In this document: positions 10,955-30,246 of the stretch, one piece after another
Layout: every line of letters starts with the position of its first letter
How positions within the stretch are numbered: the stretch's first letter is position 1
Origin: Brenneria bubanii
GTDB taxonomy: Bacteria; Pseudomonadota; Gammaproteobacteria; Enterobacterales; Enterobacteriaceae
Assembly: GCF_022378355.1 (NCBI RefSeq)
Contig: NZ_JAKMAJ010000020.1
Location: forward strand, 1-47,771
Direction of reading: 5' to 3'
Length of the DNA: 47,771 bases
Position numbers and translations under genes: made by a program
The notes under the pieces: model-generated
Seen by the model: only the letters and a program-made list of their open reading frames with translations
Told to the model about the DNA's origin: nothing
Databases searched by the model: none

Positions 10955-11692
10955 AACAAACTCGCCTGGCATGATCTTATGCCAGGTTTCATTGCCGGTC
11001 AGCGGCTGCGTCGCCAACACCGTAACCACATCGTTGGGCGTGGTCTGCTGCTGGAAATCAATTTCCACATCCTGATCCAGCAGCGTCGCTTTACCAAAAG
11101 GCGCGCGCCGGGTGATCCAGTAAAGGTGGGTGGAACAATACCCCATCACAAACTGTCCGTCGGACAGCAGCATGTTAAACACGCCTTTTTTGCGCAGCGC
11201 ATCCGCCTGCTGGGCAATATAGCGGAACACCGCGGGCCAGTTTCCCGGCGTGCGCGGATAGCGTTGCGACAGTTGATACAACAGCCAACAGAACGCAAAC
11301 TCGCTATCCGTCTGACCTACCGGCCGAAAAGTGCCGGTTTTTAACGAACGATACCCTTTTAATTGCCCGTTATGGGCGAACGTCCAGTTTCTTCCCCACA
11401 GTTCGCGGGTAAAAGGATGCGTATTTTCCAGCGCCACAGATCCCCGGTTCGCCTGGCGGATATGTGATACCACAGCGCAAGATTTGATGGGATAGTCCTG
11501 TACCAGCCGGGCAATCGGCGAGCTATAGCTTGGCTGAGGATCCTTAAACGTTCGGCAGCCATGGCCTTCATAAAACGTAATTCCCCAACCGTCCCGGTGC
11601 GGCCCCGTCAGGCCGCCACGCTGTACCAACCCGGTAAAACTGAAACAAATGTCTGTCGGCACATTAGCGCTCATCCCAAGCAATTCACACAT
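10925..11692 (-). CDS. yafJ: class II glutamine amidotransferase-like protein YafJ
   Basis: A stand-alone class II (Ntn-type) glutamine amidotransferase domain of 255 residues, the same length as E. coli YafJ. The start at 11692 is set by biology: it puts Cys at position 2 (MCELLGMSANVP), so removal of Met leaves the N-terminal nucleophile. It is preceded by GAGAG. Other motifs are the RGG and GPHRDGWGI segment, SHIRQANRG, the glutamine-loop residues in TFAHNGQLKGY, and GQTDSE. The physiological substrate is not established. The 3' end overlaps dpaA by 30 bp in a convergent arrangement. Confidence 0.93.
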   Translation of the reverse strand: MCELLGMSANVPTDICFSFTGLVQRGGLTGPHRDGWGITFYEGHGCRTFKDPQPSYSSPIARLVQDYPIKSCAVVSHIRQANRGSVALENTHPFTRELWGRNWTFAHNGQLKGYRSLKTGTFRPVGQTDSEFAFCWLLYQLSQRYPRTPGNWPAVFRYIAQQADALRKKGVFNMLLSDGQFVMGYCSTHLYWITRRAPFGKATLLDQDVEIDFQQQTTPNDVVTVLATQPLTGNETWHKIMPGEFVLFRFGERVI

Positions 11693-11726: not shown

Positions 11727-12311
11727 CTATCCTTTAGCAACCATTTCTTTTTCAATCAGTTGGATAAGGATATGTATCGCCTTGATGTGAATTTCCTGAA
11801 TACGATCGGCGTAGCCGAAATGCGGTACACGAATTTCCACATCCGCCGTGCCGGCCATTTTGCCGCCGTCTTTACCGGTCAGCGTAATGACCTTCATGCC
11901 TTTAGCCTTCGCCGCGGCAATCGCTTTAATAATGTTGCTGGAATTCCCCGAGGTTGAGATCCCCAAAAGCACATCGCCTTCACGCCCCAAGGACTCAATA
12001 TAACGAGAAAAAACAAAATCATAACCAAAGTCATTACTGACGCAGGAAAGATGGCTCGGGTCGGAGATGGCAATCGCCGGGTAGCCCGGGCGATTCTCCC
12101 GATAGCGGCCGGTCAACTCTTCAGCAAAATGCATCGCATCACAGTGCGAACCGCCATTACCACAGGAAATAACTTTCCCGCCCGACTTAAACGCGTCGGC
12201 CAGCAGTACCGCAGCATTTTGAATAGACTGAATATTCGCATCATCACTCAAAAAAGCATTCAGCGTTTCCGCCGCTTCTTTCAGCTCACTACGGATTAAG
12301 TCCTGGTACAT
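11727..12311 (-). CDS. gmhA: sedoheptulose-7-phosphate isomerase
   Basis: First enzyme of ADP-L-glycero-D-manno-heptose synthesis for the lipopolysaccharide inner core: it converts sedoheptulose 7-phosphate to D-glycero-D-manno-heptose 7-phosphate. The 194-residue SIS-domain protein has the phosphate-binding loop [20 protein letters not shown] (about 49-68), [10 protein letters not shown], and [13 protein letters not shown] with a metal-binding His. It is essentially collinear with E. coli GmhA (LpcA). GAGAGG precedes the ATG. It lies 34 bp upstream of yafJ, so co-transcription is likely. In E. coli the divergent neighbour is fadE; here it is yajD. Confidence 0.97.
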
Positions 12312-19678: not shown

Positions 19679-20935
19679 CTAGTCCTGATAGGTCAATATC
19701 ACCTGCGTCAACGCGCGTAACGCCAGCGCGACGTCCGCCGTCATCACCGATTCGTCAGGGTGATGGCTGATCCCTTCCCTGCAGCGGACAAACAGCATGG
19801 CGACCGGCCAACGTTCGGCAATGGCGATGGCATCATGTCCCGCGCCGCTGGGCAACAATAGATTGCCGCCCTGCACTTGCTCAACGGCGTGGCTCAAGCG
19901 CTGTTGCAACGCCGCATCGCAGCGGGTGGCGGCGATGCGGTAATACTCTTGCGCCGTGAAGCGACATCCGCGATCGTCGGCGATCCTCTGCGCCGTGGTC
20001 AGCAGATTTTTCAGCAGCGCGTCCAGCGCCGCGTCTTCCGGCCCGCGAATATCCAGCGTTAATCTGACTTCACCGGGAATGACGTTCGCCGCCCCCGGCA
20101 GGCATTGCAACGTGCCGAAGGTCGCAACCAGATAAGGATCGCTCTCCCTGGTTAACCGCTCCGCCTGCGTCATCCAGTTCGCCGCCGCCGCCAGCGCATC
20201 CTGCCGCTGGGTCATCGGTACCGTTCCCGCATGCCCGGCCACGCCCTCAAAGGTACAGTTCAGACGACGAGCGCCGTTAATCGCCGTGACGACGCCCAGC
20301 GCCAATCCCTGCTGCTCCAGACAGGGACCCTGCTCAATATGCAGTTCCAGATAGGCGGCAATGTCGCCGACCGGACGCGCCGCCTGGCCGATAGTCCGTG
20401 GATCCAACCCGGCCGATGCCAGCGCCTGCTCAACCGTCATACCCTGCGCATCCCGGCAGTTCAGCCAGTCGGCCGGCCAGGTGCCGGTCAGACCGCGACT
20501 GCCCAGCAACGTGATGCCGAAGCGGGTGCCTTCCTCATCGCCGAATCCCACCACCTCCAGCGCGAACGGCAGGCGGATGTTGCGCCGGTGCAGGACGCCA
20601 ACCGCCTCAATCGCCGTTAATACGCCCAGCATCCCGTCATACCGCCCGGCGTTGCGAACCGTATCCAGATGGGACCCCAATAATAGAGCGGGCGCATTCG
20701 GTCGACGCCCCTCATAGCGCCCGCAAATATTACCGACGCTATCCTGCCGGACTTGCATCCCGGCCTCACGCATCCACTCGCCGACCAATACATTGGCGCG
20801 CAGATGCTCAGGCGACAGATAGACTCGCGTAAGCTGCCCTGCCGTTTCACTTATTTCCGCCAGCGCATCGCAGCGCGCCATAACCCGTTCCGCCGCGGGT
20901 CGCGCAGCAAACATCGACATCCGGGCATCGCTCAT
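19679..20935 (-). CDS. hpxK: allantoate amidohydrolase (M20 family)
   Basis: Predicted to hydrolyse allantoate to ureidoglycine, CO2 and ammonia. The 418-residue protein is an M20 amidase of the AllC / N-carbamoyl-amino-acid hydrolase group. Metal-ligand motifs are GSHLDTV, GRYDGMLGVL, VGFGDEEGTRFG, LELHIEQGP and, near the C terminus, GISHHPDESV. The start at 20935 overlaps the hpxJ stop codon by 4 bp (ATGA), so translation is coupled. The reading frame stays open 39 codons further upstream, inside hpxJ, but those residues are not family-like. Substrate is inferred from its partner hpxJ; sequence alone cannot exclude other N-carbamoyl substrates. Confidence 0.85.
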   Translation of the reverse strand: MSDARMSMFAARPAAERVMARCDALAEISETAGQLTRVYLSPEHLRANVLVGEWMREAGMQVRQDSVGNICGRYEGRRPNAPALLLGSHLDTVRNAGRYDGMLGVLTAIEAVGVLHRRNIRLPFALEVVGFGDEEGTRFGITLLGSRGLTGTWPADWLNCRDAQGMTVEQALASAGLDPRTIGQAARPVGDIAAYLELHIEQGPCLEQQGLALGVVTAINGARRLNCTFEGVAGHAGTVPMTQRQDALAAAANWMTQAERLTRESDPYLVATFGTLQCLPGAANVIPGEVRLTLDIRGPEDAALDALLKNLLTTAQRIADDRGCRFTAQEYYRIAATRCDAALQQRLSHAVEQVQGGNLLLPSGAGHDAIAIAERWPVAMLFVRCREGISHHPDESVMTADVALALRALTQVILTYQD

Positions 20936-22173
20936 GCCGGCTCCTCGCCGGCATAGCAATCCCATGCGGCCTGCAACGCCGCCCCCTGAACGGAACCAAA
21001 GCCCAGGTGATTCAGCACCGCTTCCAGCGCGCTCAACGTCTGCATCACACAATCTTTACGGGCGTTATAGCCCATGGTGCCGATACGCCAGATCTTGCCC
21101 TGCAGCGGCCCGAAAGAAGTGCCGATTTCAATGGCGAAATCTTCCAGCAGCATCTTGCGCACCTGCTCGCCATGAATACCTTGCGGGATCGTGACGCCCA
21201 GCACGTTGTTCATTCGATGCCGGCCGTCGCCAAAAACCGTCAGCCCCATCGCCTGAATGCCGGCCGCCAGGGCTGCGCCATGTAAAGCATGACGGGCGAT
21301 ACACCGATCCAGTCCTTCCTCTACGATAATGCGGGCGCATTCGCGCGCCGCAAACAGCATACTGGTAGCCTCGGTGTGGTGGTTCAGGCGCTCCGGCCCC
21401 CAATAATCCATCACCATGCCGAGATCAAAGTAGTTGGAATAGATCATTTCATCGTCGCCGTCCTGATGCGCATCGGTGCGGATCCCCTGCTCGACGCATT
21501 TGCGACGGCGGATCACGTCCTCCATTCGCGGACTCAGCGTGATCGGCGAACTGCCGGACGGACCGCCCAGACATTTTTGCAGCCCGGCGGACACCGCATC
21601 CAGCCCCCAGGCATCGGTTTCCAGTTCGTTGCCGCCAAAAGAAGCGGTCGCATCGGTATAGAACAGTACGCCGTGACGGCGGCAGATCTCGCCCAGCTCA
21701 GCCAGCGGCTGCAGCATGGTGGTCGAGGTATCGCCCTGTACCGTGAGCAGTAATCGCGGACGCACGCTTTTAATCGCATCTTCTATCCGATCGGGCGTAA
21801 ATACTTCGCCCCAGGGGGCTTCAATGGTATGCACTTCGGCACGGCAACGGCGGGCGATTTCACACAATAAATGGCCGAAACGGCCAAATACCGGCACCAG
21901 CACTTTATCGCCGGGACGGATCGCCGACAGCAGAATCGCCTCTATTCCGGCGCGCGATGTGCCGTCCACCAGCAGAGTCCAGCGGTTTTCGGTACGAAAC
22001 AGTCGACGATAGAGCACCATCACCTGATTCATATAATGGGTCATCGCCGGGTCATACTGCCCGACCAATTGGCTGGCCATGGCACGCAGTACGCGCGGAT
22101 CGGCATTAATCGGCCCCGGCCCCATCAACAAACGATGAGGGGGATTGATCTGCGCGTACGGTTCATTGTTCAT
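20932..22173 (-). CDS. hpxJ: (S)-ureidoglycine aminotransferase, PucG/HpxJ family
   Basis: PLP-dependent class V aminotransferase that moves the amino group of ureidoglycine to a keto acid, giving oxalurate. The 413-residue protein has the family N terminus HRLLMGPGPINADPRVLRAM, VDGTSRAGIEA, the cofactor aspartate in LFYTDATASFGG, and the PLP lysine K200 in SAGLQKCLGGPSG. Related alanine-glyoxylate aminotransferases share these features; the adjacent allantoate amidohydrolase and hpxWXY favour the ureidoglycine role. The ATG at 22173 is chosen because GGAG lies 9 bp upstream; a TTG at 22188 overlaps that site. A 136-bp gap separates it from the transporter ATPase gene. Confidence 0.85.
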   Translation of the reverse strand: MNNEPYAQINPPHRLLMGPGPINADPRVLRAMASQLVGQYDPAMTHYMNQVMVLYRRLFRTENRWTLLVDGTSRAGIEAILLSAIRPGDKVLVPVFGRFGHLLCEIARRCRAEVHTIEAPWGEVFTPDRIEDAIKSVRPRLLLTVQGDTSTTMLQPLAELGEICRRHGVLFYTDATASFGGNELETDAWGLDAVSAGLQKCLGGPSGSSPITLSPRMEDVIRRRKCVEQGIRTDAHQDGDDEMIYSNYFDLGMVMDYWGPERLNHHTEATSMLFAARECARIIVEEGLDRCIARHALHGAALAAGIQAMGLTVFGDGRHRMNNVLGVTIPQGIHGEQVRKMLLEDFAIEIGTSFGPLQGKIWRIGTMGYNARKDCVMQTLSALEAVLNHLGFGSVQGAALQAAWDCYAGEEPA

Positions 22174-22309
22174 TATGACTTGCTCCAAAATTTATGCTGC
22201 GCCGGTGGTTAATCCCCGCCAGCGCATCGAACAGACAAACATTGTCATGCGGAATTTATCGTGCGTATAAATTTCACCAGACATGCCTTTAACACTGACT
22301 TGTTAAGCG

Positions 22310-23053
22310 TTACGCCTCCGATAACCCGCGTACCGAGGCGATAAACTGTTTCAGTTCGGCGCTTTGGGGATTGGCGAACAGCGCTTTACTCTCGCCCTGT
22401 TCCCAGACTTTACCCTGATGCATAAACACCACGCGGTCGCCCACTTCACGGGCAAAATTCATTTCGTGCGTCACCAGAATCAGCGTCATCCCCTCTGCGG
22501 CAAGCTGCTCCAGCACTTTCAGCACTTCACCGACCAATTCCGGATCCAGCGCCGAGGTAATCTCATCGCACAGCAAGACTTTCGGGTTCATCGCCAGCGC
22601 CCTGGCTATCGCCACGCGTTGCTGCTGGCCGCCGGATAAATTGCCGGGATAGTAATTCATTCGCTCTCCCAGCCCGACCTTGTTCAGCACCTGCTCGCCC
22701 AACTCTCGGCACTCAGCGGCGCTTTTGCCCAACACGCGTCGCGGCGCCAGCATGACGTTTTGCAATGCGGTCATATGAGGAAATAAATTAAAATTCTGGA
22801 ATACCATACCGACTGAACGACTAATTTCGCGCGCCTGCGAATCGCGATCGGTGACGGTCATGCCGCTCAGCTTGATGCTGCCATCCTGATAGCCTTCCAG
22901 ACCGTTCATACAACGCAACAAGGTGCTTTTCCCCGAACCGCTGCGTCCGATGATGGAAATAACCTCACCCATTTCAATATCCAGATCCACGCCCTTCAGG
23001 ACATGATTCTGGCCGTAATACTTCTGTACCTGATTAATGGTTATGAGCGGCAT
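22310..23053 (-). CDS. ABC transporter ATP-binding protein (polar amino acid type)
   Basis: The 247-residue ATPase subunit belongs to a polar-amino-acid-type (GlnQ/HisP-like) importer. It has Walker A GRSGSGKST (about 36-44), the Q-loop VFQNFNLFPHM, the signature LSGGQQQRVAIARAL, Walker B VLLCDEITSALDP and the switch His in LVTHEMNFAREV. It overlaps the upstream permease gene by 20 bp. Its location between the transporter genes and hpxJK suggests uptake of a purine-degradation product such as allantoate or allantoin, but the transporter class itself only says small polar, often amino-acid-like, substrates. It may correspond to one of hpxFGHI of Klebsiella; I am not sure which letter. Confidence 0.9.
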   Translation of the reverse strand: MPLITINQVQKYYGQNHVLKGVDLDIEMGEVISIIGRSGSGKSTLLRCMNGLEGYQDGSIKLSGMTVTDRDSQAREISRSVGMVFQNFNLFPHMTALQNVMLAPRRVLGKSAAECRELGEQVLNKVGLGERMNYYPGNLSGGQQQRVAIARALAMNPKVLLCDEITSALDPELVGEVLKVLEQLAAEGMTLILVTHEMNFAREVGDRVVFMHQGKVWEQGESKALFANPQSAELKQFIASVRGLSEA

Positions 23054-23690
23054 TGAATTTCGTCTCCAGATAGCGGCTATAGTAGGAAAGCGGGTAACAC
23101 ATCAGGAAATAGCCGAGCGCCACCAAACCGAAGACCTTAAACGGCTGGTAGGTCACGTTATTCAACATGGTTCCCGCTTTCGTCAGTTCAATGAAGCCGA
23201 TAATGGATGCAAGAGCCGTTCCTTTTATCACCTGAACGGAGAATCCCACCGTCGGCGCGATGGCGATGCGCATCGCCTGAGGGGCAATCACCCGATAGAG
23301 CGTTTGCCAAAAAGTCAGCCCCAGGCACCGCGAGGCTTCCCACTGCCCTTTGGGCAAGGCTTCGACGCTGCCGCACCAGATATCCAGCAGAAAGGCGCTG
23401 GTAAACAGCGTTAGCGCCAACGCCGCCGCCGTCCATGGGCTGACGTCGATGCCGAACAGCGCCAGACCGAAAAACGCCAGGAACAGCTGCATCAGCAGCG
23501 GCGTTCCCTGAAACAGTTCGGTATAGAGGCGGATAATGCGAATGGGCCATTTATATTTCATCAAGCGCAGCAGCATCAGCGGCAACGTCACCAGCGCGCC
23601 GCCGATAAACGCGGTGAGCGACAGCAGCAGCGTCCAGCGCGCCGCCAGCAGTAAATTGCGCACAATGTCCCAGTCGGTAAACGTCGTCAT
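23034..23690 (-). CDS. ABC transporter permease (polar amino acid type)
   Basis: A 218-residue inner-membrane permease of the HisM/GlnP type with about five hydrophobic segments. The conserved cytoplasmic EAA loop that contacts the ATPase reads EASRCLGLTFWQTLYRVIAP (about 126-145). The start at 23690 overlaps the stop of the preceding permease gene by 4 bp, and an extension upstream of it would not be membrane-like. Two different permeases in one operon imply a heterodimeric channel, as in HisQM. Confidence 0.9.
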   Translation of the reverse strand: MTTFTDWDIVRNLLLAARWTLLLSLTAFIGGALVTLPLMLLRLMKYKWPIRIIRLYTELFQGTPLLMQLFLAFFGLALFGIDVSPWTAAALALTLFTSAFLLDIWCGSVEALPKGQWEASRCLGLTFWQTLYRVIAPQAMRIAIAPTVGFSVQVIKGTALASIIGFIELTKAGTMLNNVTYQPFKVFGLVALGYFLMCYPLSYYSRYLETKFNAAHNH

Positions 23691-24355
23691 GATTGCTGAC
23701 TCCCCAAAAAGCGCCGGCCCGCCAGCAATAATAGTTGGCGCATCAGCACGGACAACGCGAGATAACACAGCGTGGTCACCAGGTACACCTCAAAGCTCAG
23801 AAAAGTGCGTGACTGGATCAGGTTGGCGGCAAAGGTCAATTCCTCATAAGACACCTGAGAAACCACCGACGACCCGAGCATGACGATAATGCACTGGCTT
23901 ACCAGCGCCGGATAAATTCGCTGCAACGACGGCGGCAGAATCACGCGGAAGAAAGCCTGAGCGCGCGTTAGCCCCAGCACTCTGGCCGCTTCCCACTGGC
24001 CCTTAGGCGTGACCTGAATGCCCGCGCGAATAATTTCGGTGCTGTAGGCGCCCAGATTAATCAGCATCGCCAGTAACGCCGCCTGCCCGGCGGTGAGTTT
24101 CAGCCCCAGGCCGGGCAGACCAAAGACGATAAAAAACAGCTGCACCACAAACGGCGTATTGCGGATCAGCTCGACATAGACTCCCCACAGCCTGCTAAGC
24201 GGCGTAGGCCGGCCGCTGCGCAGCGCGGCGCCGCAAATGCCGATGGCGATGCCGCCAACCGTGGCCATTACCGTCAACTCAATGGTGACCCATAGCCCCG
24301 ATAATAGCTCGGGCCAGAACGGCCACAGCGCGGAAAAATCAAGCTGGTAGGTCAT
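23687..24355 (-). CDS. ABC transporter permease (polar amino acid type)
   Basis: A 222-residue permease that partners the one downstream. It carries the typical N-terminal sequence LLSGLWVTIELTVMATVGGI, the conserved ELIRNTPFVVQLFFIVFGLP and the EAA loop WEAARVLGLTRAQAFFRVIL. AAGGGG precedes the ATG. It lies 13 bp after the binding-protein gene and overlaps the second permease by 4 bp, which places all four transporter genes in one operon. Confidence 0.9.
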   Translation of the reverse strand: MTYQLDFSALWPFWPELLSGLWVTIELTVMATVGGIAIGICGAALRSGRPTPLSRLWGVYVELIRNTPFVVQLFFIVFGLPGLGLKLTAGQAALLAMLINLGAYSTEIIRAGIQVTPKGQWEAARVLGLTRAQAFFRVILPPSLQRIYPALVSQCIIVMLGSSVVSQVSYEELTFAANLIQSRTFLSFEVYLVTTLCYLALSVLMRQLLLLAGRRFLGSQQS

Positions 24356-24368
24356 GGCCTGGCGCCCC

Positions 24369-25160
24369 TTATGCCTTGATGCTGTCAGGCAACGGCGCCT
24401 TCAGCCATTTTTCCGACAGTCCATCCAGCGTCTTATCCTTCAGCGCCTTCTCAATTAGCCCATCCACCCGCGCTTTTAACGCCGGCTCCTCTTTTTTCAG
24501 ACCGATATAGCACGGAGAATCCTTCAGCATGAATTTCGCCACCGGCGCTTTGGTCGGATTTTGCCCGGCAATCGCCGCCACGACCAGATTACCGGTGGCG
24601 ACATACTCCACCTGACCGGATAAGTAGGCCGACAGCGTGGTGTTATTGTCTTCATAGCGTTTGATCTGCGCCGCCTTAGGGGCGATCTCGCTCAGCACCA
24701 TATCTTCCACCGCGCCGCGCGTAACGCCGACGCTTTTACCCGCCAACGCGTCCGGTGACGCCAAATCGCCGTCACTGGAACCAAATACGCCCAGGAAGAA
24801 CGGCGCATAGGCCCGGCTGAAATCGATGACTTTTTCACGCTCGGCGTTTTTACCCAGGCTGGAGATCACCAGATCAACCTTGTTGGTTTGCAGATAAGGC
24901 ACGCGGTTAGCGCTGGTCACAGGCACCAGTTGTAACTTCAGTTTCATCTCTTTCGCCAGATAACGGGCAATATCGATGTCATAGCCCTGCGGTTGTAAAT
25001 CCGTCCCGACCGAGCCGAACGGCGGAAAGTCCTGCGGTACGGCAACCCGCAATACGCCGCGCTGTTCAATATCCTTTAACTGGTCGGCCATCGCGCCGCC
25101 GGCCTGAATCAACAGCAGCGCCGCGCCCGCCGCCGCCAATAAACATTTTTTGATGCCCAT
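24369..25160 (-). CDS. periplasmic solute-binding protein of the ABC transporter
   Basis: The 263-residue protein has a clear signal peptide (LLAAAGAALLLIQAGGAMA, cleavage expected near residue 25). The mature part is of the SBP family 3 type: RGVLRVAVPQDFPPFG, PQGYDIDIARYLAKEM, VDLVISSLGKNAEREKVIDF and, later, a second lobe with YKRYEDNNTT-like polar residues. Family 3 proteins bind amino acids and related small anions. It is the first gene of the transporter operon, and its upstream region carries two GAAAC-type repeats that may be operators for the RpiR regulator. The exact ligand cannot be read from the sequence. Confidence 0.9.
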   Translation of the reverse strand: MGIKKCLLAAAGAALLLIQAGGAMADQLKDIEQRGVLRVAVPQDFPPFGSVGTDLQPQGYDIDIARYLAKEMKLKLQLVPVTSANRVPYLQTNKVDLVISSLGKNAEREKVIDFSRAYAPFFLGVFGSSDGDLASPDALAGKSVGVTRGAVEDMVLSEIAPKAAQIKRYEDNNTTLSAYLSGQVEYVATGNLVVAAIAGQNPTKAPVAKFMLKDSPCYIGLKKEEPALKARVDGLIEKALKDKTLDGLSEKWLKAPLPDSIKA

Positions 25161-25491
25161 ATTGTCCGCCCCCGATTAACTCACGATTGAAACTAATGAT
25201 TCTTAAAAAGCAAATAATGAAACTATCGTTGCAAAAATAAAGCAAAGAACATGCCAGTCTCAAGCCGTGACCGCCAACGTTTCAGTCCGGCCATGATCAT
25301 TGCGGAGCGTTCAGGAAAAAAAGCCGGTTACGCCAGAATTGAAGGGGATATCAGACGGTATAGACGCCGAGGGGAAAAACGTTGCGCCGATAAAAAAATG
25401 ACGAGAAGCCGACCCGAATCGGCATCAAAAACCAGAGAATAAGAAAAACATAACGCACCAATTTGATGCAAAGCACCATTTTTGCGCCCCG
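25161..25491. promoter_or_regulatory. promoter region of the transporter-hpxJK operon with two operator-like sites
   Basis: This 331-bp gap has no supported gene. Two 14-bp sites, GAAACTAATGATTC (25189-25202) and GAAACTATCGTTGC (25219-25232), start 30 bp apart, about three helical turns. Both fit an imperfect palindrome GAAAC-N4-GTTTC. A related site lies upstream of the regulator gene at 26359. They are candidates for RpiR-family binding. The rest shows no clear structure. Confidence 0.45.
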
Positions 25492-26331
25492 TTATCGCTG
25501 TTCCAGTTCATCCAGCTCGCTGTAGAGATCGGCGATTTGATGAATGCGTTGGCGACCGTCACGCAACATTTCATGCAGTAACGCGTTGCTGAGCAGATTG
25601 ACCAGGCTCATCGCGGAAGCGTAGCTGTCAAAAGCGGAAACGCTGTCCAGCGGCGCGCACAGCGCCCAATTCGCCAGGGGCAATAAAGCATGCGCCTGCG
25701 GCTCGCACAGCAATAATACCGGCACCTGCTGTGCCCGCAGGGCCGTCAGCAGCGGTTGAATCAAGCGGGCGCGGCGGCGAAATGCCACCACCACCACCAG
25801 ATCCTGCTCGTTCAGGTCCGCCAGCTCTTCAGACAGCGTTTGCCCGGGCTGAACCAGCAGCATCACCTGAGGTCGAGTCTGCACCAGTTGCTGACGCAGG
25901 TGAAGCGCGACCGGATAACTGTTGCGCAATCCCATAATGCACAGACGCTTCGCACGCATCATCGCGGCGATCACCGCGTTGAACTGCGTCGGATCGATCT
26001 GCTGCGTCCATTGGGTCAGGTTGGCCATCTCTTGCTTGTAATGTCGCGCCAGCAGGGTGTTTCCCTGCACCGCGTCACGATTATCAGCCAGCGGCATTCC
26101 GCTCTGGCGCAGCGTACGCAGCTCCTCACGCATGGCGCGGAAGCTGGAATAGCCAAGCCGTTTGAATAAGCGGCTGACGGTGGCTTTAGAAACGCCGCTC
26201 ATCTGCGCCAGTTCGGCGCTGTTGTAGCTGATCAAATCATCGAAATGATCGAAGATAAAATCCGCAACCCGCTGTTCCTGTGGCGAAAGTTCGCTGTAAC
26301 GACGCTGTAGTCTTTCATCAATCTGCTTCAT
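25492..26331 (-). CDS. RpiR-family transcriptional regulator
   Basis: A 279-residue regulator with an N-terminal helix-turn-helix domain (SPQEQRVADFIFDHF then AELAQMSGVSKATVSRLFKR, about 17-60) and a C-terminal SIS domain (about 125-260, with CIMGLRNSYPVALHLRQQL) that usually senses a phosphosugar or related metabolite. It lies between the transporter-hpxJK operon and the divergent hpxWXY genes, so it is the likely local controller of both. Whether it acts as repressor or activator, and its ligand, cannot be told. SIS domains bind sugar phosphates in most studied members, so use in purine breakdown would mean a shifted ligand. Confidence 0.9.
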   Translation of the reverse strand: MKQIDERLQRRYSELSPQEQRVADFIFDHFDDLISYNSAELAQMSGVSKATVSRLFKRLGYSSFRAMREELRTLRQSGMPLADNRDAVQGNTLLARHYKQEMANLTQWTQQIDPTQFNAVIAAMMRAKRLCIMGLRNSYPVALHLRQQLVQTRPQVMLLVQPGQTLSEELADLNEQDLVVVVAFRRRARLIQPLLTALRAQQVPVLLLCEPQAHALLPLANWALCAPLDSVSAFDSYASAMSLVNLLSNALLHEMLRDGRQRIHQIADLYSELDELEQR

Positions 26332-26694
26332 AACACCATCACCTATCGCTGAGCGGTTGTAACTTTCGTTTCAGTTTTACGTTTTGTTTCACCGCAACAT
26401 AACACAGCCCGGCGGGCGTTGCCTCCTCAATAGATGGCAATATTGAACCGCGTTGAGGCGGCCCTTTAGGTCGGGATCCAGGGATAGGCCGAAGTGATAG
26501 TGGGAAGCCAACGCGCCTGCGACCTGAAAAATGGCGGGGATGCCGTCAAGCGAAAAAACTGGAACGGAGTTTGCTTAAAACGAGGATGTTAGCAGGGCAA
26601 ACCGCGATGACAGCAGATAACGGTAAAAAGCAGGCAATCGATTAACGCCGTTTGCACTCTCCCCTACAGCCGGATCAAAAAAAGGAATGACGGC
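26332..26694. promoter_or_regulatory. divergent promoter region between the RpiR regulator and hpxW
   Basis: The 363-bp gap contains GTAACTTTCGTTTC at 26359-26372, which resembles the two operator-like sites before the transporter operon, followed by T-rich GTTTC repeats to about 26390. The ATG pair of hpxW is preceded by AAAGGAA. I looked for a sigma-54 promoter (GG-N10-GC) and did not find a convincing one. Confidence 0.4.
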
Positions 26695-28281
26695 ATGATG
26701 CAAAGCAATACCGCGCCATTGGGCATGGCAGTGACGCCGCATCACTTAGCCAGCGCCAGCGCTCAGGCTATTCTGCGTGAAGGCGGCGACGCCATTGAAG
26801 CGATGGTGGCGGCGGCGGCGACAATCTCCGTGGTTTATCCCCACATGAATGGATTGGGCGGAGATGGTTTCTGGTTGATTGTGCCGCCGCAAGGCGAACC
26901 TATCGCCATTGACGCCAGCGGCGCCGCCGGTCAGCTTGCCAGCCGTGATTTTTATCGGGGAGAACCGCACATCCCCCATCGCGGCCCCAAAGCCGCGCTC
27001 ACCGTTGCCGGCACCGTCGGCGGCTGGCAAGAAGCGCTGAAATATTCTCAGACCCTTGGCGCGGTCCCGTTGCCGCTCGAGCGCCTGCTCGCCGACGCCA
27101 TTCGTTATGCCGCAGACGGTATTCCCATAACCCAGTCGCAGGAAGATGCGCTGAGGCAGCATTATAATGAATTGATTAATCTGCAGGAGTTTAGCCGCGT
27201 CTTTATGCCTGAAGGGACGATCCCGCGCGCCGGCAGCCGTTTTACCCAGCCCGATCTGGCTGAAACCCTGACGCGGTTGACGCGGGAAGGTTTGGACAGT
27301 TTCTATCGGGGATCGCTGGCGAAGCGCTTTGCCGAACAAATGACCCGGCTGGGCATGCCCGTGACGGGCGATGATTTAGCCGGCTACCGCGCCAAACGCA
27401 CCACGCCGCTGCGCTTAAAGCACAGTAAAGGCGATGTGTATAACCTTGCCCCGCCGACGCAAGGGCTGGTGTCATTAGCGATCCTCGGCTTGACCGATCG
27501 CCTGGATATGGCGGATCTCAATGACAGTCAGACCGTCCACCGCATTGTCGAATCCACCAAATTGGCTTTCCGGTTGCGCGACCGTTTCATTACCGACCCG
27601 AACATGATGACGCAAAACGCTCAGGCATTGCTGGAGCCGGATAACCTCAGCCTGATGGCAAACGAAATTGATACCCGTAAAGCCGCGCCCTGGCAGGCGG
27701 GTAAAGGCCCCGGCGATACGGTGTGGATGGGCGTGTGCGACAGCAGCGGGCTTTGCGTTTCCTTTATTCAGAGCATCTACCATGAATTCGGCAGCGGCGT
27801 CGTACTGCCCGGTACCGGGGTGCTATGGCAGAATCGCGGCGCCGCTTTCAGTCTCGATCCTCATCATCTGCTGGCGCTGGAGCCGGGCAAACAGCCGTTT
27901 CATACCTTGAATCCGGCGGCCGCGAGATTATCCGACGGCCGCACTATGGTGTATGGCGCGATGGGCGGCGACGGACAGCCCCAGACGCAGGCGGCGCTGT
28001 TTATTCGTCATGTGCTTCAGGGGATGCCGCTACAGCAGGCGATTACCGCGCCGCGCTGGCTATTGGGGCGCACCTGGGGGCAGTCGTCCGACACCTTAAA
28101 ACTGGAGGAGCGCTTCAAACCCGCCACCATCGACGCGCTGCGCGCGTTGGGTCATAACGTCGAACTGCTCAGCGGTTTTAGTGAATCCGTCGGCCATGCC
28201 GGCGCCATCGTCCGCCATACTCACGGCATGCTGGAAGGCGCGTTCGATCCCCGCAGCAACGGCAGCGCCGCGGGTTTTTAA
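26695..28281 (+). CDS. hpxW: oxamate amidohydrolase (gamma-glutamyltransferase family)
   Basis: Predicted to hydrolyse oxamate to oxalate and ammonia, the last nitrogen-releasing step of the hpx uric acid pathway, as shown for Klebsiella HpxW. The 528-residue protein has the gamma-glutamyltransferase fold: GMAVTPHHLASASAQAILREGGDA at the N terminus, LGGDGFWLI, and an autoprocessing site in KGPGDTVWMGVCD, where T342 should become the N-terminal nucleophile of the small subunit. No signal peptide is present, unlike periplasmic Ggt, so it should act in the cytoplasm. It leads a plus-strand operon with hpxX and hpxY. A glutathione-type substrate cannot be excluded from sequence alone, but the neighbours argue for oxamate. 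Confidence 0.85.
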   Translation: MMQSNTAPLGMAVTPHHLASASAQAILREGGDAIEAMVAAAATISVVYPHMNGLGGDGFWLIVPPQGEPIAIDASGAAGQLASRDFYRGEPHIPHRGPKAALTVAGTVGGWQEALKYSQTLGAVPLPLERLLADAIRYAADGIPITQSQEDALRQHYNELINLQEFSRVFMPEGTIPRAGSRFTQPDLAETLTRLTREGLDSFYRGSLAKRFAEQMTRLGMPVTGDDLAGYRAKRTTPLRLKHSKGDVYNLAPPTQGLVSLAILGLTDRLDMADLNDSQTVHRIVESTKLAFRLRDRFITDPNMMTQNAQALLEPDNLSLMANEIDTRKAAPWQAGKGPGDTVWMGVCDSSGLCVSFIQSIYHEFGSGVVLPGTGVLWQNRGAAFSLDPHHLLALEPGKQPFHTLNPAAARLSDGRTMVYGAMGGDGQPQTQAALFIRHVLQGMPLQQAITAPRWLLGRTWGQSSDTLKLEERFKPATIDALRALGHNVELLSGFSESVGHAGAIVRHTHGMLEGAFDPRSNGSAAGF

Positions 28282-28298
28282 TCTAACTAGCGAGGAAT

Positions 28299-28499
28299 AT
28301 GATGACTACCCAATCAACCGATAATGCCGAACTGGCATCCTATATCCAACAAATGGAGACGCTGCTGGCGCTGGCGCTAACCCAGGCACGACGCCAGGAA
28401 CTATTGCTTCAGTTCAGCCGTATTTATGACATGGCCCAACCCTTGATGGCGTTTCCGCTGGAGGCGCATCAGGAGATAGCCGGAGTCTATACATTATGA
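28299..28499 (+). CDS. hpxX: small AtzG/GatC-like subunit, oxalurate catabolism
   Basis: A 66-residue protein, predicted mostly helical, of the HpxX/AtzG (DUF4089-like) group. The central part reads LALALTQARRQELLLQFSRI, and the end [18 protein letters not shown] resembles the extended tail by which GatC and AtzG wrap around their amidase partners. It overlaps the amidase gene by 4 bp (ATGA), which favours equimolar synthesis. GAGGAAT precedes two adjacent ATG codons (28299 and 28302); the second has the better spacing. In related AtzE-AtzG pairs the small subunit is needed for amidase stability. Assignment is by size, context and tail motif. Confidence 0.8.
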   Translation: MMTTQSTDNAELASYIQQMETLLALALTQARRQELLLQFSRIYDMAQPLMAFPLEAHQEIAGVYTL

Positions 28500-29878
28500 G
28501 TCAGGTTCAGACGCTGTCCATCAAACAAATTCGTCATGGATTGCAGTCCGGCGAGTTCTCGGCCAGAGAGCTGGCGCAACGTTCGCTGGATGCGATTGAG
28601 CGCGTCAACCCGACGATTAACGCCTATACGACGATAACCCGCCGGCGCATGCTGGATGAAGCGGAAAGCGTCGATCGCCGGCATAAACTCGGCGAACCGC
28701 TGCCCGCGCTGGCCGGCGTGCCTTATGCGGTAAAGAATTTATTTGATGTCGCGGGCGAAACCACATTAGCCGGCGCGCAGCTATTTAGCCAGCGTCCGGC
28801 CGCATCGCAGGATGCGTTCGCCATCGCCCGGCTAAGCCAAGCGGGCGCAATGTTGTCCGGCATGCTGAATATGGATGCATACGCCTACGGCTTTACCACG
28901 GAGAACAGCCATTACGGGGCGACGCGCAATCCGCGCGATACGCAAAGGATTGCCGGAGGCTCCTCCGGCGGATCCGCGGCGGCGGTGGCCGCGGGGCTGG
29001 TCAATTTTACGCTGGGCAGCGACACCAACGGCTCGATTCGGGTTCCTTCCTCGCTGTGCGGTATTTTCGGACTCAAGCCAACCTTTGGCCGTTTGTCACG
29101 CCGCGGCAGCCATCCTTTTGTCGCCAGTCTCGATCATATTGGCCCAATGGCGCGGAACACCGAAGATTTGTCACTGGTTTTTGACGCGTTGCAGGGTCAG
29201 GACAGCGCCGATCGTTTTCAGGCGCCACGCCCGGATCTTACATGCGCTGAACGCTTGACGGCGGGCAATGACGGCCTGCGCTGCGCGGTGCTGGACGGTT
29301 ATTTTTCCGACTGGAGCAGCGACGACGCCAAGAGCGCCGTACGGCAGGTGGCCCACGCGCTGAATGCGCAAACCCACGTCAGTTTGCCGGAAGCCAATCT
29401 GGCGCGCACCGCGGCCTTTATCCTTTCCGCCAGCGAAGGGGGAAACCAATATCTTCCCGCACTGCGCGATACGCCAGAGCTGTTCGAGCCCTTCTCGCGG
29501 GAACGTCTGCTGGCCGGGGCCATGATCCCCGCCGCCTGGTATATCCAGGCGCAGCGCTTTCGCGACTATTTCCGCCGGCAGGTTTTGCCGCTGTTCGAAC
29601 ATACCGATCTGCTGATTGCGGCGGCGACGCCTTGCTGCGCCACGCGAATCGGCCAGGAAAGCATGCGCATTAACGGCGTAGACCTGCCGGTGCGCGCCAA
29701 TATGGGCATGTTGACGCAGCCGATCTCTTTTGTCGGATTACCCGTTGTCACCGTACCGATGAAAACGGCGAGCGGACTGCCGATCGGGGTCCAGATCATC
29801 GCCGCACCATGGCGAGAGGATCGCTGCCTGCGCGCCGCCTGGGCGCTGGAACAGCAAGGCTGCTGTCTATTGTCTTAA
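28496..29878 (+). CDS. hpxY: AtzE-family amidase, predicted oxalurate hydrolase
   Basis: A 460-residue amidase-signature enzyme. The Ser-cisSer-Lys triad is visible: K80 (YAVKNLFD), S156 ([11 protein letters not shown]) and nucleophile S180 ([12 protein letters not shown]). It belongs to the AtzE group (1-carboxybiuret hydrolase-like), whose substrates are small carboxylated ureas. Oxalurate, the product of HpxJ, is exactly such a molecule, so hydrolysis of oxalurate to oxamate plus carbamate is a reasonable prediction; direct release of oxalate and urea is the alternative. The third oxalurate-associated gene of Klebsiella, hpxZ, is not found downstream. Confidence 0.8.
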
Positions 29879-30246
29879 GCGCTACATTATTATCCGTCAC
29901 CGTTACGGCGGCATCTGCGCTGGCTTCCCTTATTGCTCGGCTCGTCCCTGCTCCAAACCGGAAGCCAGCCGTCGGCTGGTCAAATCCATTTCCGCCATGA
30001 TGCAATGCGAAATCTATCGGCTATCGCGTTATTTGGGCAAAAAATACCGTTAATTAACCACACACAATATCAGGCGATTATTTGCTGCTATTCGGCCCTA
30101 ATTGACTGAAAACGATCTTGCGAAAAAGGATAATAATGTTAACTGCGTCACACTCGCCATGTGCCCGATATTTACCGCCGCACACGCCGCGCTAGGCGGC
30201 AAATTTCCCCATAAAATCATGACGCTTATTTTTACTATAATTAAGC

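Follow-up and report, generated by a model that had tools for sequence, protein, structure and literature searches.

The window analysed here is an entire contig (NZ_JAKMAJ010000020.1, 47,771 nucleotides, contig C20) of the 4.89-Mb Brenneria bubanii genome (G000), which consists of 533 contigs. At 19679..29878 it carries a block of ten genes that is not new: it is the hpx allantoate/oxalurate module of Klebsiella and other Enterobacterales. The sole unusual feature found is the loss of hpxZ, which had been overlooked in a first-pass annotation of the same DNA. The ten open reading frames are of normal length, and the gene content, positions and families that this annotation had given were borne out by Pfam and NCBIfam profile models with their cut-offs and by solved homologous structures:

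19679..20935, minus strand: hpxK, allantoate amidohydrolase (M20 family; NF006773 equivalog, 783 bits with a cut-off of 584)
20932..22173, minus strand: hpxJ, ureidoglycine-glyoxylate aminotransferase by homology (structure 3nnk over residues 5-410, E 2.2e-240; 4-base overlap with hpxK)
22310..23053, minus strand: ATPase of an ATP-binding cassette (ABC) importer (PF00005)
23034..23690, minus strand: ABC importer permease (PF00528; TIGR01726 above cut-off)
23687..24355, minus strand: ABC importer permease (PF00528; TIGR01726 above cut-off)
24369..25160, minus strand: hpxF, periplasmic binding protein of the importer, predicted ureide ligand (PF00497)
25492..26331, minus strand: hpxU-like regulator of the RpiR family (PF01418 and PF01380)
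26695..28281, plus strand: hpxW, oxamate amidohydrolase with a gamma-glutamyltranspeptidase (GGT) fold (structure 5hft)
28299..28499, plus strand: hpxX, AtzG/GatC-like small subunit (NF033624, 97 bits with a cut-off of 70; PF13318)
28496..29878, plus strand: hpxY, AtzE-family amidase, predicted oxalurate deaminase (NF006631, 766 bits with a cut-off of 461)
29879..30121, no strand: site of the missing hpxZ, between hpxY and a proV-like gene (from alignment to the Brenneria sp. hezel4-2-4 locus L001 and from tblastn)

Among the listed models none represents a ureidoglycine aminotransferase (HpxJ) or HpxW, and both identities rest on solved structures: 3nnk was deposited as 'Ureidoglycine-glyoxylate aminotransferase' and 5hft as 'Gamma-glutamyltranspeptidase'. 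We take both to be from Klebsiella and 5hft to be HpxW itself. The HpxW of the window is slightly under the cut-off of the general GGT model TIGR00066 (343 versus 358 bits). Chains A and B of 5hft align to its residues 2-341 and 342-528, with the chain break preceding T342, and HpxW is predicted to cleave itself before this residue. The best solved relative of HpxY is 6c62 ('Biuret hydrolase', E 2.5e-140), presumably AtzE; with its Lys-Ser-Ser residues and the AtzG-like subunit HpxX, HpxY has the composition of an AtzE-AtzG amidase. Residues that we take to be catalytic are conserved: H89, D100, E134, E135 and H199 of HpxK are invariant in 81/81 homologous sequences (at position 392, 77 of the 81 have H and 3 have N), as are K200 of HpxJ (81/81), T342 of HpxW (74/74) and K80, S156 and S180 of HpxY (82/82). 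NCBIfam names both HpxX (NF033624) and HpxZ (NF033625) as 'oxalurate catabolism' proteins.

The layout is that of the two Klebsiella operons: hpxJ and hpxK are adjacent and on the same strand as the ABC importer and the RpiR regulator, as in hpxUFGHIJK, and hpxW, hpxX and hpxY are divergent from hpxU, as in hpxWXYZ. We compared the block with the loci of named HpxY relatives (the best 80 of 171, with flanks of up to 10 kb), which include B. roseae (L009). Six or more of the ten genes stand together in 79 of these 80 loci, and this synteny excludes a chance arrangement. Both hpxJ and hpxK are present in 79/80 (the exception, L037, is a 3.6-kb contig) and the binding protein is present in 76/80. 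The closest named HpxY relative, among the matches listed, is that of Brenneria sp. hezel4-2-4 (85%). Genes and arrangement are also the same in K. oxytoca (L077), with identities to the window of 83% for HpxJ, 73% for HpxU, 70% for HpxK, 69% for HpxW and 67% for HpxY; however, K. oxytoca has hpxZ and the window does not, and it has genes for 5-hydroxyisourate (HIU) hydrolase, 2-oxo-4-hydroxy-4-carboxy-5-ureidoimidazoline (OHCU) decarboxylase, PuuE and a hydantoin-racemase-family protein nearby. The RpiR-family regulator was presumed to be HpxU from its position and the Klebsiella layout; a study by Guzman et al. 2013 reportedly, going by its title, deals with the Klebsiella allantoate cluster and an RpiR-type repressor HpxU. 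The other gene names and their order are those of the Klebsiella hpx genes.

We consider it likely that the block is the Brenneria version of this module and scavenges the nitrogen of allantoate by the reactions proposed here. The ABC importer would take up a ureide, probably allantoate, and HpxK would convert allantoate to ureidoglycine, NH3 and CO2. HpxJ would then transfer the amino group of ureidoglycine to glyoxylate, yielding oxalurate and glycine, and HpxX-HpxY would release NH3 from the terminal amide of oxalurate to give N-carboxyoxamate. The latter would decarboxylate to oxamate, a step that the AtzH-like HpxZ may speed in most relatives and that is probably spontaneous here, and HpxW would release oxalate and NH3 from oxamate. 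By this route the four nitrogens of allantoate would leave as three NH3 and one glycine, and neither a urease nor a carbamoyltransferase would take part. The order from allantoate through ureidoglycine, oxalurate and oxamate to oxalate was already proposed in the first-pass annotation and fits the families. Its description of the block as self-contained is too strong, as hpxZ is deleted, the glyoxylate for HpxJ would come from elsewhere, and glycine and CO2 are presumably also products. HpxW has been cited as oxamate amidohydrolase, as far as the excerpt of that paper goes (PMC5270733).

The HpxXY and HpxZ reactions are argued by analogy with the AtzE-AtzG-AtzH system of the cyanuric acid pathway of Pseudomonas sp. 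ADP, in which HpxXY would correspond to AtzGE and the missing HpxZ to AtzH. According to Esquirol et al. 2018 (PMC6219798), 1-carboxybiuret is deaminated by AtzEG, with AtzH as the proposed decarboxylase of the product; their reconstituted pathway worked even in the absence of AtzH and gave ammonia at a higher rate once AtzH was included. Oxalurate, analogous to 1-carboxybiuret, would be the substrate of HpxXY. The Pseudomonas system nevertheless serves another pathway and another substrate, and no atzD or atzF is among the ten genes of the window. The same paper describes, for Pectobacterium, Serratia, Klebsiella, Yersinia and others, ggt-atzG-atzE-atzH clusters of Enterobacteriaceae whose opposite strand encodes an ABC transporter, a transaminase and an allantoate amidohydrolase. 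The window resembles these clusters, except that their regulator is given as LysR-family and that of the window is an RpiR protein, and that atzH/hpxZ is not in the window. Published naming of hpxY is unsettled: one paper, in the sections available, has it as oxalurate amidohydrolase in the text and as oxamate carbamoyltransferase in a figure legend (PMC12625717). The oxamic transcarbamylase (AllFGH) route of E. coli also runs via oxalurate and oxamate; as described in the portion at hand (PMC11326118), it differs in that oxalurate is made from ureidoglycolate and carbamoyl phosphate is formed at the end. The first-pass annotation had the block work without a carbamoyltransferase, and this agrees with the genome: AllG (PF06545) was not found in the window's genome and the model matched the E. 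coli control; AllF and AllH were not searched.

In 78 of the 80 loci hpxZ follows hpxY, the exceptions being L016 and Symbiopectobacterium L018. The window has no NF033625-type hpxZ after hpxY and is thus an hpxWXY block, and the AtzH model PF11533 has no match in its genome at E <= 0.001. The genomes of L016 and L018 have none either, and three controls (the genomes of L001, L002 and L030) match. The window aligns to L001 until 29870 and resumes at 30122 (L001 positions 11375 and 12019), and the alignment of a second Brenneria genome (G003, locus L104) to L001 ends at 11375 and restarts at 11994 (BLAST end points are approximate). As both genomes skip the hpxZ of L001 (11405-11791) at nearly equal breakpoints, one ancestral deletion is the simplest account. 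No remnant of hpxZ was found between hpxY and the proV-like gene (tblastn with HpxZ of L001, best E 0.23, on the other strand). An assembly gap is an unlikely cause: the contig is unbroken into the proV-like gene and G003 has nearly the same breakpoints. The spacer behind hpxY of the window holds about 136 bases (29891-30026) that are not in G003. HpxZ of L001 matches AtzH (6bjt) with E 3.9e-44, and its Y22 and R46, invariant in 78/78 HpxZ sequences, align to Tyr and Arg; this fits the Tyr22 and Arg46 that an abstract names for AtzH (numbering of the chain as aligned). It is also very close to a solved structure deposited as 'Uncharacterized protein' (2rcd, E 2.1e-70). The literature matches listed, by their titles and abstract starts, hold nothing on modules that lack hpxZ.

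The loss could mark a decaying module, with an impaired branch from oxalurate to oxalate, a build-up of oxalurate or N-carboxyoxamate, and genes that this Brenneria lineage is in the course of losing. Losses within the genus agree with this. Among ten Brenneria genomes, the window's included, HpxX is present in seven and AtzH in six: HpxX occurs without AtzH in the window's genome and in G003, AtzH occurs without HpxX in G005, where hpxX and hpxY are gone between hpxW and hpxZ, and neither occurs in G001 and G002. G003, which shares the hpxZ loss, has in addition an hpxK that is apparently frameshifted near its 3' end, by a real mutation or a sequencing error. However, all ten reading frames of the window are open and of normal length, the catalytic residues are conserved, and the ratio of nonsynonymous to synonymous substitution rates (dN/dS) between the window and G003 is only 0.015-0.184 over the ten genes (dS 0.31-0.58, about 0.4 for most). 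If the deletion is shared, the divergence between these two postdates it. Individual values are 0.184 for hpxX, 0.154 for hpxK (codons 1-356), 0.136 for hpxY, 0.090 for hpxW and 0.070 for hpxJ. The L016-L018 pair, in which both loci lack hpxZ, is constrained too, with dN/dS of 0.077 for hpxY and 0.043 for hpxX (dS 0.42 and 0.37). Both genes are thus still constrained in both groups without hpxZ, and decay is an unlikely explanation.

The continued constraint on hpxX and hpxY suggests that the oxalurate step probably runs without HpxZ. We give roughly even chances to the idea that the HpxZ step is dispensable, so that the Brenneria and the Symbiopectobacterium-like lineages kept HpxXY under selection without it, with N-carboxyoxamate decarboxylating by itself or HpxXY having taken over. 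Strains with HpxXY and without HpxZ are in this sense a natural test of whether an AtzH-type step is ever essential. Alternatively, the C-N bond of oxalurate that HpxXY cleaves may be a different one, with oxamate as the immediate product or with oxalate and urea as products, so that HpxZ would never have been needed for this step; its absence from two separate genome groups that keep HpxXY would fit. The parallel to AtzE-AtzG-AtzH and the strong co-occurrence of HpxX and AtzH make this improbable, more so than decay. In a sample of 295 genomes of the order, HpxX and AtzH each exceed the cut-off in 15 genomes, 14 of them common to both (two further genomes per search match below it); HpxX stands alone only in the window's genome and AtzH only in G200.

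Several observations weigh against an intact hpx module in Brenneria that runs from allantoate to oxalate without HpxZ. The co-occurrence of HpxX with AtzH in 14/15 HpxX-positive genomes of the order and the retention of both in a genome of 1.1 Mb suggest that HpxZ normally matters and that its loss could weaken the pathway. The three highest dN/dS values of the window-G003 pair are those of hpxX, hpxK and hpxY, and G003 has the apparent hpxK frameshift described above. In comparisons with two loci that have hpxZ (L106 and L107), hpxX and hpxY are likewise looser than hpxW and hpxJ. L016 and L018 are without hpxW in the block and need not complete the same pathway. The ligand of the importer is a prediction, and, the TIGR01726 permease domain aside, none of the importer models among the matches listed reaches the cut-off: the best curated models for the ATPase are GlnQ, TcyN and HisP, with all of the best 25 of 188 under their cut-offs, and solved structures are only distantly related to the binding protein (best E 2.3e-28). 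To our knowledge there is no assay for this organism.

Where the substrate comes from was judged from the whole genome. The suggestion that the route does not start from urate stood: uricase (PF01014) and OHCU decarboxylase (PF09349) have no match in the genome, and neither HpxO nor PuuE reaches its cut-off (PuuE 74.6 versus 424.6 bits); the searches there did not extend to HIU hydrolase, the racemase or an allantoin permease. The best HpxO-like match has 44 bits with a cut-off of 500; such matches, which 12 of 14 controls also give, were dismissed as general flavin adenine dinucleotide enzymes. Of the enzymes that would lead from urate into an hpx pathway (uricase or HpxO, OHCU decarboxylase and allantoinase), the genome has only a borderline AllB-type gene. 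The first-pass annotation had also stated that no allantoinase gene is nearby, and this is true for the window and less clear for the genome: the AllB-type gene lies on another contig (G000:C3:401489-402874) and scores 359.3 bits with a cut-off of 357.85, while it fails two stricter models (366 versus 631 and 284.7 versus 688 bits). It is part of a separate cluster (L094, G000:C3:392000-406221) with adenine-deaminase-like, UAAP2-like, LysR, NCS2 permease, M20 amidohydrolase and isochorismatase-like genes.

Such neighbours, the NCS2 permease, M20 amidohydrolase, isochorismatase-like and adenine-deaminase-like genes, would suit a cell in which the block acts downstream of an endogenous allantoinase, with allantoin taken up and the ABC importer serving another ligand. 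We regard this as doubtful, as the gene fails the stricter allantoinase models and adjoins an M20 amidohydrolase of its own, which looks like a separate pathway. In the window's genome, allantoate appears to be the entry point of the module, or allantoin should the AllB-type gene be functional. Plant ureides could be one source and insect ureides another, both being guesses; the sole outside hint on plant ureides is the discussion of a pan-genome-wide association study of Serratia marcescens, which, in the part available, relates signals for HpxZ and an amino-acid ABC permease to plants (PMC10656689).

Genes for earlier purine steps vary among the 80 loci. HIU hydrolase and OHCU decarboxylase are in the flanks of 47/80, and PuuE and a racemase-family gene in 42/80. 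None of the four is found in 29/80. These comprise every one of the 15 loci L001-L015 (Brenneria and Pectobacterium) but also Yersinia, Pseudomonas, certain other loci and a small number of short contigs, so that the absence does not set the window's group apart. We considered whether the importer is traded for purine genes and found no anticorrelation: the importer is missing from two Mixta loci and one Phytobacter locus (L044, L045 and L048), two of which carry HIU hydrolase and OHCU decarboxylase genes next to hpxK, but HIU hydrolase occurs together with the importer in 45 loci.

The RpiR regulator would act at a dyad, TGNAAC-N4-GTTNCA, of which the window has two copies:

26358..26373, no strand: candidate operator TGTAAC-N4-GTTTCA, between hpxU and hpxW
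25218..25233, no strand: candidate operator TGAAAC-N4-GTTGCA, upstream of the binding-protein gene

In 77/79 loci (L038 and L050 are the exceptions) a copy of the dyad sits in the gap from hpxU to hpxW (or hpxX), with a chance expectation of 0.055 per window from mononucleotide shuffles; it is a good candidate for the operator of the regulator. Near hpxF (within 350 bp upstream) it is found in 21/76 loci. A third operator-like site at 24931, inside the binding-protein gene, is possibly a coding coincidence and was not counted. Scans for promoters and terminators gave numbers close to chance (10 with 7.1 expected, and 13 with 14.1).

HpxXY and HpxZ are the least characterised steps, assigned in the literature consulted by annotation rather than assay, and the relatives of the window offer natural knock-outs around them. 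If the proposed pathway is true, the pruned variants, which lack Z, both W and Z, XY with W and Z retained, or the importer, are a natural dissection of the order of steps. No hpxW match was found in 8/80 loci (L016, L018, L025, L055, L058, L061, L071 and L073), and in L015, L046 and L049 the best hpxW segment covers half to 61%. L016, without hpxW locally and without AtzH genome-wide (the search for lost genes elsewhere in the relatives' genomes covered AtzH and HpxX), has the same layout as L018 and is very similar to it in sequence. In the Brenneria locus L105 (G005:C1:1007000-1026900) hpxZ comes directly after hpxW: the block has lost both hpxX and hpxY, and HpxX is found nowhere else in the genome. 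In L044, L045 and L048 the four-gene importer is not between hpxU and hpxJ. A distant version (L111, G200:C7:134000-153900) has HpxZ, HpxJ, HpxK, an HpxW-like protein, the importer and relatives of PuuE and the racemase; it has no HpxX match, and an amidase of a different family (NF006169, 404.8 bits with a cut-off of 391) is in the position of HpxY.

The hpx genes are unmentioned in the available parts of a symbiont paper (PMC7218078) and of PMC8032781, and the matches listed for Pantoea carbekii hold nothing on them. The genome of 1.1 Mb that keeps both HpxX and AtzH is probably, at a guess, that of an insect symbiont. Over 17.6 kb with 28% G+C (L110, G056:C1:603000-620588) it has hpxK, hpxJ, hpxW, hpxX, hpxY and hpxZ together with genes for an NCS1 permease (PF02133), a hydantoin-racemase-family protein and a PuuE allantoinase; neither hpxU nor the ABC importer has a match in the same stretch, which looks like a minimal set for the recycling of allantoin nitrogen.

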